From positions 9,407,501 to 9,471,500 of the forward strand of contig NZ_CP086136.1 in assembly GCF_017565645.3 (NCBI RefSeq): DNA of 64,000 bases, read 5' to 3'. Within the stretch, counting starts at the first letter, position 1, and each line of letters starts with the position of its first letter. Made by a program: the position numbers and the translations under genes. The stretch is from Bradyrhizobium barranii subsp. barranii (lineage in GTDB: Bacteria; Pseudomonadota; Alphaproteobacteria; Rhizobiales; Xanthobacteraceae). Below the pieces are notes generated by a model. That model was not told the origin of the DNA, did no database searches, and saw only the letters and a program-made list of their open reading frames with translations. This document shows, piece after piece, positions 14,650 through 27,683 of this stretch.

Positions 14650-14885
14650 CCTCGGTGACACTCCGGGTTACACGCTCGTGGCGCGATCTTCCGACGGAGT
14701 TGGGAGCGGATCATCGCGGCGTAGCGGGTGGTGACCGTCGCGCCGCGATGGATCAGGAGATGGGATTTCCGACCGTTCGGGCCGGTGAAGTGGACGCGCG
14801 TGTGTTTGCCGCCCTCGGAGACCCACACGTCCGATCCCCCGGCCTGCCGCACCAAGGTGACAATCTCACGCATCAGTTTCCGCAT
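14646..14885 (-). CDS. HicA-like small nucleic-acid-binding protein
   Basis: A 79-residue basic protein starting MRKLMREIVTLVRQAGGSDV. The pattern of a first helix, a strand with KHTRVHFTG, a strand with SHLLIHRG and a last helix (YAAMIRSQLRRK) resembles the dsRBD-like fold of HicA toxins and related phage proteins. No HicB-type partner is adjacent, so a toxin role is unlikely. The start overlaps the 3' end of the next gene by 20 bp. Confidence 0.5.
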   Translation of the reverse strand: MRKLMREIVTLVRQAGGSDVWVSEGGKHTRVHFTGPNGRKSHLLIHRGATVTTRYAAMIRSQLRRKIAPRACNPECHRG

Positions 14886-15345
14886 CAGGCTCGCTCGTTG
14901 GTTGGGCCGACGAGATGGTGGCGCGAACAGCGGCGGCGAACCGGGCGCAGGCCGATCCGACCGAGGAGTGATCGCGCTTGAAGACCAGCCCGACCTGACG
15001 GTGCGTGGCCCCGGTCGCAACCGCGACGAACGCCATCATCTTCTGGCGCAACTCGATCAGCTCGGGGTCGCGATCGGGCCGAGTGACGACGCTGGGCTGG
15101 GCGCCATAACCTTTGACGATGCAGGCGAACGCCTGATCGCACTGCTTCATGTAGCCGCGCGCGGCGCGCTGGCGCCGAAACTCCCGCTCGGCGAACAGCA
15201 TGACGCGGATGTCCTGCGAGGGGAGCAACGGGCGGGACGCGCCGCCATGGCGCGGGGCCGCCTCGATGCGGAGAACGTCGCCGAGCCGGGTTGCGGTGAT
15301 AGGCGCAGCACAGGACGAGCCGTCGCGGTCGCAGAAGTCAGGCAT
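14866..15345 (-). CDS. DnaA domain IV-like DNA-binding protein
   Basis: A 159-residue protein. Residues about 95-140 (ELIELRQKMMAFVAVATGAT, then HRQVGLVFKRDHSSVGSACA) match the C-terminal DNA-binding domain of DnaA, including the signature like GRDHTTVxHA. There is no AAA+ domain. Phages use such domains as regulators or to recruit host replication. It lies just downstream of recT in the leftward early operon. Confidence 0.65.
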   Translation of the reverse strand: MPDFCDRDGSSCAAPITATRLGDVLRIEAAPRHGGASRPLLPSQDIRVMLFAEREFRRQRAARGYMKQCDQAFACIVKGYGAQPSVVTRPDRDPELIELRQKMMAFVAVATGATHRQVGLVFKRDHSSVGSACARFAAAVRATISSAQPTSEPDAETDA

Positions 15346-17227: not shown

Positions 17228-17643
17228 AACGCACAGAAACCAATCCCACCGGTCCCAAGGTGCACTTGGAGCGCGGCATCGATGATGCTTTTGTCGGGTG
17301 TGAGGGCCGCCCGCTGGTAGTCCGCAGGCGGTGCGCCGTGGTGATCAGGTCAGTGCGTTATTGTTTGCTTCAATCTGCCTGTCATCGCGATTGTCCGCCC
17401 GCTTCGATCAAGCTGTCAACATGCGCGATCAAAAAAAGCGGGTACGGATCAACTTCAACGTGCTGTCGAAATTGCTGCCACCAACCAATGAACTCGCGGC
17501 GAGTTGTCAGCGTTCGTTCGCATTTGTCCGCCGGTCCTGAGTTACGCAATTGGTGGGTACGGGCCGCAGAAAACAGATGACGATGACGCGAAGCAGTGAC
17601 TATTAAAACGACCGTCGTGCTTCGCGACAAACGGGGCGGCCCG
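17228..17643. other. Divergent control region between leftward and rightward early operons
   Basis: About 415 bp separate the RecE-type gene (minus) from the GcrA-like gene (plus). Short open frames exist on both strands, none with convincing protein character. The divergent early promoters and their operators should lie here, though no -35/-10 pair could be assigned with confidence. Confidence 0.45.
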
Positions 17644-18063
17644 ATGGTCTATCAATCGACATGGGATGATGCGGCTGAACAAACCCTGCGGCGCTGGGTC
17701 GCCGAGGGCGCGTCGTCGTCGGTGATCGCCGATGCGATGCATCGCACGCGCAGTGCGGTCTCCGGGAAAATCTCACGCCTCAAGCTTAAACGTCCCGAGG
17801 GCCAGTCGCCGATGACTAAAGCCATCACCAAGCAGCCGCCGAAAGCCGAGGCGTCGGTCGCCCTGGCGCGCAAGCTCGCGCCGATCGAGGCCGTCAACAG
17901 CAAGCCCGTGCCCTTCCTGCAAGCCAAACGCTTCCACTGCCGCGCCGTGCTGAACGAGCGCGGCGAGGACGGTCTCGCCATGTTCTGCGGCGCCAAGAAG
18001 CGGCCCGGCTCGTCATGGTGCCCGAAGCACCATCGCCTGTTCGTCAACTACGGGAGGGCCTGA
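17644..18063 (+). CDS. GcrA-like cell-cycle regulator
   Basis: A 139-residue protein. The N-terminus has the GcrA DNA-binding domain (STWDDAAEQTLRRWVAEGAS, HRTRSAVSGKISRLKLKR). The C-terminus carries the GcrA cysteine/histidine cluster (FHCRAVLN, MFCGAKKRPGSSWCPKHH). Host GcrA binds methylated GANTC promoters with sigma-70 RNA polymerase. A GTG 48 bp upstream keeps the frame open, but the ATG at 17644 matches the family start. It leads the rightward early operon, so it may recruit host polymerase to phage promoters. Confidence 0.82.
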   Translation: MVYQSTWDDAAEQTLRRWVAEGASSSVIADAMHRTRSAVSGKISRLKLKRPEGQSPMTKAITKQPPKAEASVALARKLAPIEAVNSKPVPFLQAKRFHCRAVLNERGEDGLAMFCGAKKRPGSSWCPKHHRLFVNYGRA

Positions 18064-19079: not shown

Positions 19080-19708
19080 ACGCGGGCGGGATTGTCCTGT
19101 CGCTCTGCGATCGAACCGGCACCATGGTGCTGCCGTGGATCGAGGCGGGCTATTCGGCGATCACCGTCGATCTCCAACCGGCGCCGCGCGAGCACCATCG
19201 CCGCCATCACATCGTCGCCGACATCACGCAATGGCGCTATCCCGCGCATCTGCCGCGCCCCGTCATCGTCTTCGCATTTCCGCCGTGCTCGCATCTCGCG
19301 GTCTCGGGCGCCCGCTGGTTCAAGGGTAAGGGCCTCGGCGCCCTGATCCATGCGCTGCAAGTGGTCGATGCCTGTCGGCGCGTCTGCGAGGACAGCGGCG
19401 CGCCCTACATGATCGAGAACCCGGTCTCGACCCTTTCGACCTACTGGCGCGATCCCGACTACACGTTCGATCCCTGCGGCTACAGCGACCCCTATACGAA
19501 GCAAACGTGCCTGTGGGTCGGCGGCGGGTTCGTCATGCCCGAGAAGGTCCAGATCGGTGATCTGTTCGCCGAGCCGACGTGCGTCGAGCCGGTGCTGGGC
19601 TCCGCAATCCTCAATTTCTCACCGACTGCCGATCGCGCCGACACCCGCAGCATCACGCCGCCAGGTTTCGCGACCGCCGTCTATCGAGCCAATGCCGGGA
19701 GGGTCTGA
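19076..19708 (+). CDS. DNA cytosine methyltransferase-like protein
   Basis: A 210-residue protein with the order of a small C5-methyltransferase core: a nucleotide-binding start (GGIVLSLCDRTGTMVLPWIE), a PC motif (FAFPPCSHLAVSGARWF) with the candidate catalytic cysteine, and an ENP motif (YMIENPVSTLS). It is shorter than typical M.HhaI-like enzymes and lacks an obvious target-recognition domain, as is common for phage members. It might protect phage DNA or act in regulation; activity is unproven. Confidence 0.65.
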   Translation: MNAGGIVLSLCDRTGTMVLPWIEAGYSAITVDLQPAPREHHRRHHIVADITQWRYPAHLPRPVIVFAFPPCSHLAVSGARWFKGKGLGALIHALQVVDACRRVCEDSGAPYMIENPVSTLSTYWRDPDYTFDPCGYSDPYTKQTCLWVGGGFVMPEKVQIGDLFAEPTCVEPVLGSAILNFSPTADRADTRSITPPGFATAVYRANAGRV

Positions 19709-20439
19709 TGGCGCGCATCAGGACGATCAAGCCCGAGTTTCCGCAATCTGAGACCATCGGCAAGCTGTCCCGGGATGCGCGCCTGCTGTTCATCCAATTG
19801 TGGACCCTCGCCGATGACGAAGGGAGGGCTCGCGCGGCCTCGCGAATGCTCGCGAGCCTTCTCTACCCATACGATGACGATGCGCCGGGGCTCATGGACG
19901 GCTGGCTCGCCGAACTTGAGCGTCATGGTTGCATCACCCGTTACGTGGTTGAGGGCTCCACCTATCTGCAAATCGATAACTGGCTGAAACACCAGAAGAT
20001 TGATCGCCCGACGCCCTCGCGTTTGCCGGTTGTCAGCGAGGCTACGCGATTGCTCGCGAGCCCTCGCGAGGCTTCATCGACGGACCTTGGACCTAGGACC
20101 GTGGACCATGGACCTAGGACCGAGGACCATGCCGCGCCGATTGGGGCGCGCTCGGGCTCTGGCGAATTGGACTTCGGCGAGACGGTCCCGCCGCCGCGAC
20201 CGGCCAAGGTGCCACCGCCGTCTGACGCGGAGACCGAACTGTTCCGGCGCGGCAAGGAAGTCCTCGGCAGTGCTGCGGGAGGCCTCGTCTCGCGATTGCT
20301 CAAAGCGAAGGGCGGCAAGGTCCCGCTGGCGCGGGCGGCGATCGAACAGGCGTCCACCAAGCACGATCCCCGCGAATACATCGGCGCCATCATCCGGGCC
20401 CCGCCCGAGCATGAGCCGCCAAGGGTGGTGCAGCCATGA
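19708..20439 (+). CDS. O-like phage replication initiation protein
   Basis: A 243-residue protein. The N-terminal 110 residues (MARIRTIKPEFPQSETIGKL, LFIQLWTLADDEGR, LQIDNWLKHQKID) form the winged-helix domain of phage replication initiators. A repetitive linker follows (GPRTVDHGPRTEDH), then a C-terminal helical segment that probably contacts the helicase. As in lambda O, the linker DNA carries tandem repeats (seven 7-bp units) that could be the origin. It overlaps the primase zinc-ribbon gene by 4 bp. The ATG at 19708 was chosen over an out-of-character upstream extension. Confidence 0.78.
   Translation: MARIRTIKPEFPQSETIGKLSRDARLLFIQLWTLADDEGRARAASRMLASLLYPYDDDAPGLMDGWLAELERHGCITRYVVEGSTYLQIDNWLKHQKIDRPTPSRLPVVSEATRLLASPREASSTDLGPRTVDHGPRTEDHAAPIGARSGSGELDFGETVPPPRPAKVPPPSDAETELFRRGKEVLGSAAGGLVSRLLKAKGGKVPLARAAIEQASTKHDPREYIGAIIRAPPEHEPPRVVQP
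19829..20130. other. Iteron-like arrays, candidate phage replication origin
   Basis: Inside the O-like gene, seven exact tandem 7-bp units GGACCNN run from 20082 to 20130. Nearby are CTCGCG units on a 10-bp period: three at 19829, 19839 and 19849, and two CTCGCGAG palindromes at 20053 and 20063. A tandem array in the linker of an initiator gene is the arrangement of the lambda origin. A flanking AT-rich unwinding stretch is not obvious, so the origin call is an inference. Confidence 0.5.
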
Positions 20440-20753
20440 CGCGCCGCCTGTCGCTGGATGAGGTGCTGCGGATGTTCGCCCGGATCGGCTTCGACCCGCG
20501 CTCGCATAGCGGCACCCACGAACTCCGCTGCCCGGCCTGCTCACATCTGCGGCGCAAGAAGACCCACAAGTGCCTGTCCATCCGCTGCGATGCGGACGGC
20601 TTTTTCTTCCGCTGTTTCCACTGCGACGAATTCCATGGGAGCTATCGCTATGACGACGCTCGCGACGCGACACGTCGAGTTCTTCGAGGCCCGGGGGATA
20701 TCGCCCGAGCTGGCCGCCAAGTTCGAGATTTATACGGGTACTCTCGTCGGTGA
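20436..20753 (+). CDS. Primase-type zinc ribbon protein
   Basis: A 105-residue frame. Residues 15-65 contain HELRCPACSHLRRK and FFFRCFHCDEFHGS, the CxxC...CxxC ribbon that recognises the priming site in T7 gp4-type primases. After about residue 68 the frame overlaps the helicase gene for 104 bp and the tail has poor protein character. In single-chain relatives this ribbon is fused to the TOPRIM-helicase that follows here in the +1 frame. Confidence 0.7.
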   Translation: MTRRLSLDEVLRMFARIGFDPRSHSGTHELRCPACSHLRRKKTHKCLSIRCDADGFFFRCFHCDEFHGSYRYDDARDATRRVLRGPGDIARAGRQVRDLYGYSRR

Positions 20754-22185
20754 GAAGCCGAACCGGCATGTCGTCGCCAACCCGAGCGGCAACATCCTCG
20801 TCTATCCGTTCATCGAGCACGGCGTCGTCGTGAACGAGAAATATCGCACCGAGCGCGATGGCGAGAAGTTCTTCTGGCATCGCAAGGGCGGCAAGCGGAC
20901 GTTCTGGAACGCCGACGTGCTCGATGACCCGCTTCTGGAAGCGGGCACGCAAGCGCTCGTGATCACCGAGGGCATCGAGGACGGCATGGTCGCGATCGAT
21001 TGCGGCTGGCCGCTCACGGTCTCGGTGCCCGATGGCGCGCCGCCGGTCCCGAAGGATGGACGCCTGCCGCCGCTCGATCCGCAGACCGAGGCGAGCGGCA
21101 AGTTCGAGTTCCTGTGGCTCAACCGCGATCGGTTGAAGCGGATCAAGCGGTTCATTCTCGCAGTCGATGACGACGGGCCAGGACAACGGCTCGCTGCCGA
21201 AATCGTCCGTCGGCTCGGCGCCGTGCGCTGTCTGTTCGTGACGTTCCCGCCGGGCTGCAAGGACTTGAACGAGGTGCTGCGCCAGTGCGGGCGCGATGCG
21301 GTCAGCGCCGTGCTGCGGGAGGCCAAACAGTATCCGGTTCGCGGGCTCTATCGGCTCTCGGAGTATCCGGCGCTCCCGGCGCTGCACCCGATCTCGATCG
21401 GCTGGCCGCTGTTCGACGGCGACAGCGTCGCGTCCGCCAACAATGCTTGGCTGAAGCTGTTCCCGGGCGAGTTCATGGTCGTCACCGGCATCCCGAGCCA
21501 CGGCAAATCGACTTGGGTGCTGAACGTGCTGGTCAACATCGCCCGCGCCTACGGATGGCGTTCGGCCGTCTTCTCCGCCGAGATGCCAACGGTGCCGCAT
21601 CTCCGCGACAAGCTGCGCCGGATCATCGCGGGCACCGCGGCTGCATCGGCCGAGGCCGACGAGTTCATCGAGGGTAGCTTCACGTTCATCGACCACGATC
21701 CGAATGACGCCGACGAGGAAGACATCACGCTGGAATGGATCATCGAGAAAGCCCGCGATGCGGTGCTGCGCGATGGCATCCGCGTGCTGGTCATCGACCC
21801 ATGGAACGAGATCGAGCACGCCCGGCGCCGCGATGAGAGTTCGACGGAATACATCGGCCGGGCCATCCGCATGCTGAAGCGCTTCGGGCGGCAATACGAG
21901 GTCGCCGTGATCGTCCTGGCGCACCCGACCAAGGACGTGTGGGAGCACGGCCGGGCCCGAACCGCCACGCTCTACGATATCGAGGGGTCGGCCCACTGGT
22001 TCAACAAATGCGACCACGGCGTCGTCATCGAACGCGCGCCGGAAGCCAACAGATCCACCGTGCACATCGCCAAGGTTCGGTTCGAGGAAACCGGCTTCAA
22101 GGGCGCGATCAACATGGGGTTCGACGTGCAGACGCAACGGTTCGAGGAACTGGCCGAAAAGCAGAAGGAGATGGCCCTTGAGTGA
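20650..22185 (+). CDS. TOPRIM-helicase (T7 gp4/Twinkle-like replicative helicase)
   Basis: A protein of 511 residues. The N-terminal third is a TOPRIM fold (ALVITEGIEDGMVAI with the EGxxD glutamate; RFILAVDDDGPGQRLA with DxD). The C-terminal half is a RecA-type helicase with Walker A VTGIPSHGKSTW, Walker B RVLVIDPWNE and an arginine-rich end of the DnaB family. It would unwind DNA and, with the separate zinc ribbon, prime synthesis. The start is the ATG at 20650; the frame is open further upstream but noise-like. It ends overlapping the next gene. Confidence 0.85.
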   Translation: MTTLATRHVEFFEARGISPELAAKFEIYTGTLVGEKPNRHVVANPSGNILVYPFIEHGVVVNEKYRTERDGEKFFWHRKGGKRTFWNADVLDDPLLEAGTQALVITEGIEDGMVAIDCGWPLTVSVPDGAPPVPKDGRLPPLDPQTEASGKFEFLWLNRDRLKRIKRFILAVDDDGPGQRLAAEIVRRLGAVRCLFVTFPPGCKDLNEVLRQCGRDAVSAVLREAKQYPVRGLYRLSEYPALPALHPISIGWPLFDGDSVASANNAWLKLFPGEFMVVTGIPSHGKSTWVLNVLVNIARAYGWRSAVFSAEMPTVPHLRDKLRRIIAGTAAASAEADEFIEGSFTFIDHDPNDADEEDITLEWIIEKARDAVLRDGIRVLVIDPWNEIEHARRRDESSTEYIGRAIRMLKRFGRQYEVAVIVLAHPTKDVWEHGRARTATLYDIEGSAHWFNKCDHGVVIERAPEANRSTVHIAKVRFEETGFKGAINMGFDVQTQRFEELAEKQKEMALE

Positions 22186-23686: not shown

Positions 23687-24289
23687 GGGGTCACGTACTC
23701 AAGAACCACGTGCCGCAGATCCGGGCGCATATGACAGTGGCCCGCTGCCCCCCTGTTAGCGGGCGCGAGAGCGGATCTCGAGGTCGGGGTTGGGCCAAGA
23801 GCGGTCATTCAATCACGTCATCTGCACGCAGTAACAACTCTCGGCTAATCGGCAATCCAATGCTGCGCGCTGTTTTCAGATTAATCACAAGCTCGAACTT
23901 CACTGGTTGCTCAATCGGCAGGTCGGCCGGTTTTGTACCGTTCAGCACCTTCTGCACGTAACCTGCGATGCGCTTGGCCTCAAAAATCCTATCTGGTCCA
24001 TACGACAACAAGGCCCCGCTGGCGGCGAATTCGCGCCACGCTGCGATGACCGGAAGCCGCTGCTCCAATCCATATTGGGCAATTCTTGGGGCGACAAAAT
24101 TAGTTAGGCGCGAGGCGACCACAAACAAACCGTTCGCGCCATTGGTACTTGCTGCACGAAGCGCGGGCTCAAGTTCTCCGGGGCTACCAATCGGATGCGC
24201 TGTTATATCGATGCCCCCGCGGGTCACTTCAAATTCCTCCGGGTGTGGTCAGTCAAATTCCTCCACCCGCGAGGCAGGACAAGGGACTG

Positions 24290-25057
24290 TTAGTTTGAGT
24301 TTGTTTCCCGGGCAAGAGCTTCAGCGGCTTCTTTGAGCCGATAGCTGCGTCCGTCGAACTCAAGCAGATGGCAATGATGCATAAGGCGATCGAGGATCGT
24401 CGTGCTCATAGTGTTGTCCCCAAGGTATGCCCCCCAATCCTGCACGACGCGATTGGAGGTGACGATGACGCTGCGGCGCAGTTTGTAACGCTGATGGATC
24501 AGGGTCTGCAGCAAAGTGCCGGCGTCGTCGGGGATGGCGCGTGCGAGGAATAGATCGTCCAGCACGAGGAGATCGCAGTCGATGATGGTTCGCAGCCGGA
24601 CCTCGCGTTGTGCCGGAGAGTTCAGGGCGTAGCGGTGGAAGAAGTCGTCGGTCTCAAGATACTGGACCTTGTGGCTTTGCAGGATCGCCTGATAGGCAAT
24701 CGCCTTGGCTATGTGCGACTTCCCGGTGCCAGGTTTGCCAACAAGCAGAGCGTTCTCGCCAGCGGCAATGAACGCCAGGGTGTGGAGCTGGAAGCAGGTC
24801 TGACGTGGCAGTTTGGGATTGAAGGACCAGTCGAACTCGGCGAGCGTCAGCTTTTCGTCGAGCCCGGATTGCTGGTATCGCCGCTCGATAAGACGGGACT
24901 GACGACGGTCCAGTTCATCCTGCAGGATAAGGGAGAAGGTCTCGAGGAAGGGCTGGTTGGCGCCCTGCGCCTGGAGCACGCGCGTCTGCAGCGTGTCGCG
25001 GACACCCGACAGGCGCAGCTGTCGTAGGCAACGCTCAATTTCCGGCATGGTCATCAT
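24290..25057 (-). CDS. istB: IS21 helper ATPase IstB
   Basis: A 255-residue AAA+ protein that assists the IstA transposase. Walker A is GKPGTGKS at residues 107-114, Walker B LLVLDDLF near 160, and the conserved SNR segment (IVTSNRVVQDWG) follows. The start at 25057 lies 4 bp after the istA stop; a longer upstream frame is out of character. Confidence 0.95.
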   Translation of the reverse strand: MMTMPEIERCLRQLRLSGVRDTLQTRVLQAQGANQPFLETFSLILQDELDRRQSRLIERRYQQSGLDEKLTLAEFDWSFNPKLPRQTCFQLHTLAFIAAGENALLVGKPGTGKSHIAKAIAYQAILQSHKVQYLETDDFFHRYALNSPAQREVRLRTIIDCDLLVLDDLFLARAIPDDAGTLLQTLIHQRYKLRRSVIVTSNRVVQDWGAYLGDNTMSTTILDRLMHHCHLLEFDGRSYRLKEAAEALARETNSN

Positions 25058-25061
25058 GTGG

Positions 25062-26819
25062 CTAGGTCTCCAGTTTAAGGTGAGAAGGTGCAGCGGGAGC
25101 GCTCGTGGCGCCGGAGTTGGCCGGGGTTGCGCAGGCGACACGAGCGCGGATTGCCGTGGCGTGATCGTCGTGAGCCTCGGCCTGCCGACCATTGTCGTCG
25201 GCGTCGCGCCGCACAGCGCGGCTGAAGAGGTCGCCGTATTCCGCGGGGGTACGGATCAGCGGATGATCCTGGGTGAGCGGCGATGCCGGCTGTGGCGTCA
25301 CTCCAACCTGCTCGATCGCCTGTTCGAACAACCGCTCGACGGTCGCACGCACGTGCTTGTAGCGGTAGATGCGGTTGTCGATGGCGTGCGCGCAGGCCTG
25401 CTCGACCAGCCGCGCCGGATACTTCCGGCCCAGCCCGACAATGCCCCACATCGCGCGCTGTCCGGGGCGCCCTTCGGTGTCGAACACCTGCTGGCACAAG
25501 GCCCTGGTCTGCGGTCCGATGCGCTCGGCGCTCGCCAGCAGCACGGCGGTTTGCCGCGACGGGTTGAACGGCCGTTCGCTGGTCGGCAGGACGACAGAAC
25601 CGGGGTGCGCCATCCGGGAATGAACACGCAGCAGCGCACGGGTGTGGCGATCACGGATCTCGATCGTGGTGGTGTAGATGCGCACGACGACCTGGCTGCC
25701 GATCGGCGCGGGCCGCGCGGCGTAATAGCTGTTGTCGACGCGTACGGTGGTGTCGTCGCAGACAGTCCGGACGACTTCGGTGAAGATGCGGAAGGGAGCG
25801 ACAGGCAGCGGCCGCAGGTGCGGCTTCTCTTCCTGGAACATCGCCTCGACCTGACGGCGCGTGCTGCCGTGGATGCGTTTGGAAGCCCAGTTCTCCTCCC
25901 AGTGCCTCAAGAACTCGTTTTGCGCCTCCAGCGTCTCGAAGCGCCGTCCGGCCAGCGCAGTGCCCTGGGTATGTTGAATCGCATTCTCGACGCATCCTTT
26001 CCGATTTGGATCGGCCACGCGCGCGGGATCGGCGACCACGGCGTAATGAGCCAGCATCGCGCTGTAAATCGGGTTGAGCTGGGGCTCGTACAAATCCGGC
26101 TTGAGGACGCCTTCCTTCAGGTTGTCGAGCACGACATAGCTGGGGACCCCGCCAAAATACCGGAACGCCTCTTCGTGGAGCTGCGCCCAGACTTGTTGGC
26201 TGGACTTCCAGACTACCCGCCGGAAGCTGCGCCGCGAGTAGCGTAGCGTCATCACGAACAGGCGGGGACGACGGTACCGCCCGCTCTTCGGATCAACCGT
26301 CGGCGCGCCCTCGCCATAGTCGACCTGAGCTTCCTCGCCGGGGAGGAACTCAAGACGATCAAACTGCTCAGGATCAGCGTGCCGCAACCGGCGCACAAAC
26401 CGCTTGACACTCTGGTAGCTGGACGGAAAGCCAAATTGATCAACCAGGTCCTGGTAAATCGCCTGCGCGTTCCGCTTCAGCCGGACCTGTTCTTCGATCC
26501 ACGTCCGATGCGCTTCGCAAGCCGAACGGGCCAGGCTGCTGGTGACCGTCGCTTCCGATGTCCCAAAAGCCGGTGGTCGGGGTGGAGGAATTTGGCCGTC
26601 CGCGCTCACCGAGCCGGTGGTCACTTCCCCGGGGGAATTTGCCTCCGCACCGGCCCGCAGCGCCTGATAACGCCGGATCGTCTTGCGATCGACACCCGTC
26701 AGCCGGTGAATCTCGCGCTGGCTGGTGTTGCGATCAAGTAATGTAAGTACGGTGCTTTGCAGATGTCGCTTCAAGACGTTCAACTCCCCGGCCCCTTGCT
26801 GGCTAAAGGGGTCGAACAT
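25062..26819 (-). CDS. istA: IS21 transposase IstA
   Basis: A 585-residue transposase. An N-terminal HTH (TSQREIHRLTGVDRKTIRRY, residues 32-51) is followed by a second basic region and an RNase H-type core with the DDE residues D167 (QVDYGE), D232 (VVLDNLKE) and E278 (KGCVENAI). The C-terminus is a beta domain plus a basic tail. The frame is intact, so the element could still move. Confidence 0.95.
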   Translation of the reverse strand: MFDPFSQQGAGELNVLKRHLQSTVLTLLDRNTSQREIHRLTGVDRKTIRRYQALRAGAEANSPGEVTTGSVSADGQIPPPRPPAFGTSEATVTSSLARSACEAHRTWIEEQVRLKRNAQAIYQDLVDQFGFPSSYQSVKRFVRRLRHADPEQFDRLEFLPGEEAQVDYGEGAPTVDPKSGRYRRPRLFVMTLRYSRRSFRRVVWKSSQQVWAQLHEEAFRYFGGVPSYVVLDNLKEGVLKPDLYEPQLNPIYSAMLAHYAVVADPARVADPNRKGCVENAIQHTQGTALAGRRFETLEAQNEFLRHWEENWASKRIHGSTRRQVEAMFQEEKPHLRPLPVAPFRIFTEVVRTVCDDTTVRVDNSYYAARPAPIGSQVVVRIYTTTIEIRDRHTRALLRVHSRMAHPGSVVLPTSERPFNPSRQTAVLLASAERIGPQTRALCQQVFDTEGRPGQRAMWGIVGLGRKYPARLVEQACAHAIDNRIYRYKHVRATVERLFEQAIEQVGVTPQPASPLTQDHPLIRTPAEYGDLFSRAVRRDADDNGRQAEAHDDHATAIRARVACATPANSGATSAPAAPSHLKLET

Positions 26820-27683
26820 AAACGTCCTGCCTGACCGGCTACTGCTGTTCAGCGGCGCTGACGGCGATCATCAGGTGGGGGAGTTTCAAGTGACCATACC
26901 CGGGGGATTTTGACCGACCCACGGGGATCGATGCCAAGCGATTGTGCCGCTTTCCGTGCAAACGTTAGCTCATCATCGAGATGTTGCGGATTGAAAATGA
27001 CTGACACCCGCTTTGCCTTAGGAGCTACCTCGCTTAGCAATTCCACCCGTTTGACCGCCATTTCATCGGTAAGAAAGGTTACACCGGTAAAATTCTTGCC
27101 AGGGTTGGCGAGAGACGTGGCCAGACCTGCTCGTATCGGACTGTCGCTGACGCCACCCACGACAGGTATGACGCCCCCGCTTGCATCGAACAGCGCTTTG
27201 ATGAGGTCGCCACCAATCGCAAGCAGTAGGTCGGGCTTCTGCACAACGAGTTCCTCCGCCAACTCTCGGAGTCGCGTCGAGTTGCCTTCGGCGTAACGGT
27301 AAATGATCTGGAGATTGCTGCCGCTCGCGAAGGCGCCCTGCGCGAGCGCATCCTTCAGCGATTGATCGATCCGCCCCAGCGATGCATCGTCGAACACGAG
27401 CCAACCGATCCGAAGGGGCTTTTTTTGCGCAAGCGCCCGTCGTGGAAGCGACAACGCCGCAAACGTGATCAAGGCAACGAAATCGCGCCGCCTCATGGTC
27501 GTTCACCAGAATTCGAGCCGCCCGGCAGCCAGAATATAGCAGTCCGGAGAGCAGCAGCGTTCGCTTTTTTGAGAGCACATGTTCCGTTGAGGGGCAAAAG
27601 CAGTAAGGCTCTGGCTAAGCGTAAGAATTCCGCCTGGCCGTCAGAAGCTTGACCTCTACGCCTTATGAGCACACCCACCACCC

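Follow-up and report, generated by a model that had tools for sequence, protein, structure and literature searches.

The phage replication initiator gene in the window, by which we mean the whole 64,000-nucleotide stretch of Bradyrhizobium barranii subsp. barranii DNA that was analysed, is a candidate for a gene that holds its own replication origin, overprinted on the coding sequence and composed of short boxes and a run of GGA-headed units. Judged from sequence comparisons, we regard this reading as fairly likely. As a sequence signature, the arrangement marks a probable origin throughout a very large family of initiators, with at least 5564 homologues at E 0.001, and a conserved, seemingly meaningless linker peptide would be accounted for as DNA code. 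The relevant features of the window are the following.

19708..20439, + strand: phage replication initiator gene, 243 aa (phrog_2149, E 8e-33; phrog_1408, E 9.9e-30)
19829..19855, no strand: box cluster 1, in the DNA coding for the N-terminal domain (TCGCGC at 19830, TCGCGA at 19840 and 19850; 10-bp step)
20044..20069, no strand: box cluster 2, in the linker (degenerate ACGCGA at 20044, TCGCGA at 20054 and 20064; 10-bp step)
20082..20130, + strand: GGA array, seven GGACCNN units at a 7-bp step (exact sequence; tandem-repeat score 86)
20626..22185 as scanned, approximate start, + strand: downstream Toprim-DnaB-like primase/helicase gene (phrog_239, E 2.1e-70; DnaB_C, 3.6e-13; Toprim_3, 1.9e-6)

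Initiator gene, repeats and neighbouring genes

Both PHROG profiles listed for the initiator ORF are named 'replication initiation protein', and replication initiators make up the majority of all profiles matched. The AlphaFold2 model (mean pLDDT 81) consists of a winged-helix N-terminal domain, with the winged helix within residues 5-98, a linker and a helical C-terminal domain. Ten-residue blocks below 60 span residues 111 to 170; the linker is of low confidence in the model and probably disordered. No Pfam family was matched by the protein at E 0.01, and an AAA domain, sought with Pfam in the initiator and in 67 relatives, was not found. A sequence search of the PDB returned two fused receptor constructs only (E 0.034), which were taken as chance matches.

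The seven exact units of the GGA array, in which GGACC is followed by TT, TA, GT, AT, TA, GA and AT, were confirmed as reported, and the array has the highest score among 34 tandem-repeat rows in the window. All six exact GGACCNNGGACC matches in the window lie inside it; the other five matches listed carry one mismatch each, and 5.4 matches with at most one mismatch are expected by chance. The CTCGCG units on a 10-bp period were likewise present where they had been reported, at 19829, 19839 and 19849 and at 20053 and 20063. Taken alone, the word CTCGCG shows no enrichment in the window (140 observed, 161 expected); it is the spacing of the units, not the frequency of the word, that matters. 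The units are better written as the 6-bp palindrome TCGCGA, arranged in two clusters with a degenerate first copy in each.

The gene that follows the initiator gene is annotated as a helicase or helicase loader in three of 11 cultured relatives (JBD44, Louie, and PantheRoc) and as a replication protein in Tyrion; in the remaining seven it is hypothetical or unannotated. This setting bears on a reading of the repeats as a DNA element other than an origin, either an autoregulatory operator cluster or a partition centromere. Operators and centromeres are also formed by winged-helix proteins and short direct repeats, and the centromere binders TubR and AspA were among the weak Foldseek matches of the initiator (E >0.1). 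Moreover, parS loci with eight copies of an 8-bp repeat are described for mycobacteriophage RedRock in the available text of PMC7157519. However, the repeats are situated inside the gene and not at a promoter, a primase/helicase gene lies downstream, the matched profiles are mostly those of replication initiators, and no partition ATPase was matched among the 10 window proteins scanned. An operator or a centromere is, in our estimate, quite improbable.

Conservation of the repeats at the DNA level

Relatives were compared with a synonymous null, in which codons were permuted within each gene and the protein and the codon counts were kept. The 143 nonredundant genes include 5 from a scan with GGACC and 21 plus 21 from searches that included linker or C-terminal peptide words. 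Leaving out these 47 genes, 4 further genes and the window gene gave a subset of 91. Of these, scans with N-terminal words supplied 79 and genome searches with the first 110 residues 4; the other 8 were cultured phages hand-picked among whole-protein matches, for which 11 regions were taken among 60 rows listed of 374 records. Candidates in these scans were ranked on their alignment to the first sequence along its full length, with the top 80 retained, a procedure that may have favoured genes with similar linkers.

A box pair was present in the linker of 75 of the 91 genes (null 15.7) and in the N-terminal part of 73 (null 18.9), and a GGA tract in 78 (null 19.5); in these counts purine-only box words were excluded and GGA was scored by density. 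Two repeat families in one initiator gene had originally been considered an unusual design. They are common in this family: in 67 of the 91 genes the linker contains a GGA tract as well as a box pair, versus 3.4 under the null. All three elements (N-terminal boxes, linker boxes, and GGA tract) occurred together in 55 genes (null 0.9), so that the suggested conservation of the DNA units despite protein drift was strongly borne out. Relatives that keep the protein domains and lack the repeats, which would have spoken against the original prediction, were rare: none of the three elements was found in two of the 91 genes (null 47.5), namely L238 and the gene of Pseudomonas phage JBD44 (L247).

In the linkers of 89 nonredundant genes, TCGCGA was counted 199 times, compared to 42.7 expected under the synonymous null. 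TCGCGA pairs at exactly 10 bp numbered 90 (null 2.3; maximum 6 in 200 shuffles), and GGA pairs at 7 bp numbered 188 (null 66; maximum 84 in 200 shuffles). The reading frames 0, 1, and 2 of TCGCGA in these linkers were represented by 68, 54, and 77 copies; one DNA word thus encodes SR, lies within LAN/LAS, or lies within PRE. Among 77 TCGCGA-type genes, chosen for at least three copies of TCGCGA, 72 had an exact pair at 10 or 11 bp in the N-terminal part, where 89 such pairs were found versus 0.5 under the null (maximum 3 in 200 shuffles).

A motif-free count of exact 6-mer pairs in the 143 genes gave 644 pairs at a spacing of 7 bp (null 55), 480 at 8 bp (null 51), 829 at 10 bp (null 68), and 485 at 11 bp (null 59), with 107 at a spacing of 9 (null 79). 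Peaks were located at 5, 7, 8, 10, 11, 14, 16, and 20-22 bp, and most other spacings, including multiples of 3, were also somewhat above the null. For 136 control genes from the same loci, defined as ORFs without initiator overlap, the ratios at ten spacings were 0.63-1.54; earlier control genes had given 1.15-2.72, probably because some of those ORFs were antisense to the initiator. With lambda O as a control, the same test singled out spacings of 20, 23, and 44 bp, which are explained by the annotated lambda iterons; at some others (7, 51, 54, and 56 bp), too, few shuffles (11-14 of 300) matched the observed count. In this gene family, the linker and a portion of the N-terminal-domain coding sequence are conserved as DNA, beyond the requirement of the protein.

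The specificity of the repeats was assessed in the host genome and in viral contigs. In the 11.4-Mb host genome, exact GGACCNNGGACCNNGGACC matches were confined to two arrays, each within an initiator gene, and one further place carried a mismatch. The second array is found at C1:9666758, and a protein search of this genome returned two initiators, the window gene and C1:9666384-9666803. The pair TCGCGA-N4-TCGCGA was located at 11 genomic sites, five of them inside the two initiator genes. GGACCNN arrays alone are not specific to initiators: in viral contigs with three GGACCNN units, 8 of the 120 stretches listed fell in initiator ORFs (motif test). The composite pattern TCGCGA-N4-TCGCGA-N(8-38)-GGA-N4-GGA, run as DNA only over viral contigs, fell in initiator ORFs in 92 of the 120 stretches listed (84 sense, 8 antisense), near contig ends in 5, and elsewhere outside initiators in 23; these stretches include redundant sequences, and the profile used to sort them was built from the 143 genes.

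Neighbouring spacers were identical in 104 of 171 cases in the non-initiator GGACCNN arrays among the 120 listed, and this uniformity is what slippage would give. In nine initiator arrays (window included, two near-identical), 4 of 20 neighbours were identical. These numbers bear on the notion that the repeats merely encode a flexible linker peptide or represent a functionless microsatellite created by replication slippage. GGACCNN microsatellites do exist, and the low confidence of the linker in the model is of the kind seen for disordered segments. Nevertheless, this notion is contradicted by the excess of the repeats over a null that preserves protein and codon counts, by spacings that are not multiples of 3, by a box that runs in three frames and by the varied spacer dinucleotides; we consider its probability negligible.

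Among the 120 homologues listed, the names given were nearly always 'hypothetical protein', and the closest named relatives among the matches listed belong to Bradyrhizobium. Genome searches with the N-terminal part of the initiator brought in few relatives, present in 7 of the 146 genomes searched in the genus and 4 of the 385 in the class, counting the window genome. An initiator relative was present in 40 of 72,556 plasmid records, one of which covers at least 80% of the query. The product of the second initiator gene of the host genome shares 87% N-terminal-domain identity with that of the window, and the gene has its own GGACC array and TCGCGA boxes; the origin boxes of two initiators in one cell possibly cross-react.

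Array architecture and protein domains

The box preceded GGA in 65 of 67 genes that have both by a separate, pair-based rule, with a median gap of 13 nt; under this rule the box counts include purine words like AAGGGA, and the GGA-pair rule misses 5-bp arrays. Linkers with at least five GGA within 42 nt numbered 119 of 143 (null 57), and control genes 6 of 136; TCC reached this density in 1 of the 143 linkers. Strict GGA pairs at 7 or 8 bp were limited to 79 of the 143 linkers (null 32). The 7-bp GGACC run of the window is one version of a GGA-headed element with a step of 5, 7, or 8 bp in relatives. The first 30 nt of the 119 GGA tracts are 79% purine. Relative to the gene in which it lies, the GGA run shows only a small loss of stability (+0.10 kcal/mol per step) and little AT enrichment (GC -3 points).

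A hairpin directly after the GGA run was tried as a shared element and rejected, being striking in a few genes and overall not significant: the mean z was -0.49 in 119 genes versus -0.25 for stretches 90 nt beyond, with values below -1 in 33 of 119 versus 24 of 118 and below -2 in 5 versus 2. This result weighs on an RNA-level reading, in which the GGA repeats act in the mRNA, by binding a translational regulator or in R-loop priming, and the boxes are unrelated. Strand-specific units and the purine content of the tracts would suit such a role, as purine-rich RNA can form stable R-loops. On the other hand, palindromic boxes at helical spacing indicate duplex DNA, and the conserved order and short gap between boxes and GGA run argue against unrelated elements. 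An RNA-level function appears very improbable.

An exact 6-mer common to both box clusters was present in 62 of the 91 genes, versus 48% of cross-gene pairs; with TCGCGA words excluded, it was present in 5 of 22 genes, versus 4%. The low sharing indicates that the second cluster often consists of a different word. Gaps between the two clusters peak at 184, 194, and 204 bp, which is explained by the conserved domain length together with degenerate boxes, and no claim of helical phase is made.

In place of TCGCGA, relatives carry TCASTGA, TCCGGA, and other box words. The Mycobacterium phages Butters and Redi have TCGCGAG every 11 bp in two clusters, followed by GGAACAGG every 8 bp. In Klebsiella phage Kp4865-4, TCASTGA-like words every 11 bp, again in two clusters, are followed by GGGAAGG-type repeats. 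Corynebacterium phage PSonyx shows TCASTGA and then GGAACAG, Gordonia phage Attis an 11-bp unit and then GGAACAGG-type repeats, and Gordonia phage PantheRoc TCGCGAG and then GGAACAGG. GGA repeats (GGATCAG, GGAACAG) in a linker without a clear box pair were found in Enterobacter phage Tyrion and two Streptomyces phages. The recurrence of the two-array plan in phages of very different bacteria suggests that this arrangement is probably the phage replication origin. Inspection by eye placed GGAATCA repeats of Escherichia phage Louie (L248) seemingly on the non-coding strand of the linker, and JBD44, one of the two genes without elements, perhaps has a GGA-like 7/8-bp array on that strand too; this apparent inversion contrasts with nearly all other relatives.

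Pairs of relatives were compared for box type, with 'other' counted as a type; the pairs are not independent. In 1909 pairs with an N-terminal identity of at least 60% and unrelated C-terminal parts, the box type agreed in 86%. Where the C-terminal part was shared, it agreed in 25% (102 pairs with an N-terminal identity of 40-60%) and 23% (70 pairs below 40%), the baseline for pairs sharing neither part being 27% and 30%. For the GGA type, agreement was 35% among the 1909 pairs and 53% among 87 pairs in which both parts are alike; this type tracks neither domain cleanly. Box type therefore follows the N-terminal and not the C-terminal domain, and the GGA run is common more widely.

Clustering the C-terminal parts of 139 genes gave 43 clusters. 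In the 67 relatives, the only Pfam matches at 0.001 were DnaA_N (1) and DnaT (1). A DnaA N-terminal domain was noted in the C-terminal parts of relatives P0050 and P0066 and a DnaT domain in that of L243; such sequence matches suggest primosome parts borrowed from the host.

An origin inside the gene may also be built in a plainer way, with both repeat families serving as ordinary duplex sites of one initiator and the GGA run playing no part in opening or strand choice. The lambda origin, which comprises iterons plus a separate AT-rich stretch, offers a precedent, the GGA run is hardly AT-rich, and its GGACC units are in tandem like iterons. Against this, a step of 7/8 bp (or 5 bp) cannot put the sites on one helix face, dense GGA is a feature of the coding strand with almost no TCC counterpart, and the N-terminal domain predicts the box type far better than the GGA type. 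We regard this arrangement as unlikely. Our preferred reading divides the arrays originally described as iteron-like: the boxes on a 10/11-bp step are likely initiator sites, and the GGACC run is more likely a strand-asymmetric element. Specifically, the palindromic boxes of both clusters are probably the sites of the winged-helix domain, and the purine-rich run on the coding strand probably acts as an opening element or a strand-specific one, not as a set of classical iterons.

Proposed mechanism and known systems

In the proposed mechanism, the winged-helix N-terminal domain would bind both box clusters on one helix face. The bound complex would strain the adjoining purine-asymmetric GGA run, which would open or be held as a single strand. 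A step of 10/11 bp fits one duplex face and a step of 5/7/8 bp does not, hence the assignment of the GGA run as an opening or single-strand element. The C-terminal domain, which varies among relatives and may be DnaT-like or DnaA-N-like in some, would bring in the helicase/primase from the next gene or from the host, and the N-terminal domain and its boxes would form one portable specificity unit.

The cumulative GC-skew, used as an origin marker in five sequences, gave a mixed picture. The distance between its minimum and the array is 0.7 kb in the window and 1.6 kb in Louie; in Tyrion it is 0.6 kb, in the detrended profile only. The minima of Louie and Tyrion are beside divergent genes, and those of Butters and Attis are elsewhere.

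The placement of the candidate origin in the linker of a phage initiator gene, as in lambda O, was supported. As in the window gene, repeats lie inside lambda gene O and a gene for a replication partner (P) follows downstream, and lambda O binds its iterons with its N-terminal part. The description of the gene as 'O-like' holds for the proposed way of working and fails at the sequence level: PF04492 (Phage_rep_O) was not matched by the initiator at E 0.01 (lambda O itself, 5.7e-36), and hhalign against the single lambda O sequence gave no link (probability 0.1 per cent). Lambda O belongs to phrog_277, and phrog_5810, matching both proteins, is a weak bridge. The arrays differ as well, the annotated lambda origin having four 18-bp iterons with starts 20-24 bp apart, and the window family two clusters of 6-bp palindromes on a 10/11-bp step, together with GGA repeats of 5/7/8 bp. 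At least three direct repeats under DNA-level selection were found at the initiator gene, as expected for an iteron-type origin.

An origin within the initiator gene is also found in RepA_N plasmids such as pSK41 (Rep) and the pPR9 hybrid. According to the available text of PMC5703833, the linker encoded by the pSK41 origin is dispensable, and pPR9 differs from pSK41 in the N-terminal domain and the origin as one block. The RepA_N domain (PF06970) was matched neither by the initiator (E 0.01) nor by the 67 relatives (0.001). From these sequence comparisons, the family appears to work like the lambda O and RepA_N origins, yet it matches neither sequence model. For the mycobacteriophage RepA of Miko and Rachaly, an origin in repA or ahead of it, like that of lambda, is suggested in the available portion of PMC7157519, whose authors report no repeated motifs from their search of the region.

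A more specific version of the preferred reading is an origin class with two codes, in which duplex boxes would be read by the N-terminal domain and the GGA array, as a single strand, would fix the strand that is melted. The boxes would be lineage-specific and the 5/7/8-nt GGA array common to phages of Proteobacteria and Actinobacteria, and the class would be a widespread, apparently undescribed phage counterpart of the DnaA-trio system without an AAA+ initiator. We put this forward tentatively, as somewhat less probable than not. The repeat of the DnaA-trio system has a fixed polarity and step size. In an oriC of this kind, duplex boxes are followed by a short-period repeat that is read as a single strand (available text of PMC6669920 and PMC8287927); the repeat of the window family differs in being GGA-headed with a step of 5/7/8 nt, and the initiator showed no AAA+ domain in the Pfam search. 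DnaD, an initiation protein that loads helicase, recognizes one strand of the origin through a single-strand element (DRE), as described in the accessible part of PMC10201434; a similar role of the GGA run is suggested by analogy only. No description of the two-array design was found in the accessible text of the open-licence PMC papers that the searches listed, and a self-immunity DNA element overlapping a phage gene (PMC8585504, available text) was set aside as unrelated.

If the two-code reading is true, the peptides SRxLAS in the winged helix and SRxLAxPRExS and TDLGPRT in the linker would be partly by-products of origin DNA. The relatives also constitute a natural series, with box types that vary along with the N-terminal domain and C-terminal domains that are exchanged. 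This makes recognition, opening, and helicase recruitment separately testable in laboratory phages of M. smegmatis (Butters) or E. coli (Louie, whose array is apparently inverted).

Some further genes of the window were recorded. A gene resembling the cell-cycle regulator GcrA is located in the phage region at 17596-18063 (+) (PF07750, E 3.6e-13), and the ORF at 14869-15345 (-), adjoining a RecT gene, gave a sub-threshold match to the C-terminal DNA-binding domain of DnaA (PF08299, E 4.1e-6). An IS21-like pair on the - strand (IstB at 24293-25192, rve-domain transposase at 25065-26819) lies within 23808-27496, a few kb away from the genes for phage replication; it is flanked by two ORFs that match different parts (positions 197-292 and 11-142) of PF04392, an ABC-transporter substrate-binding profile.
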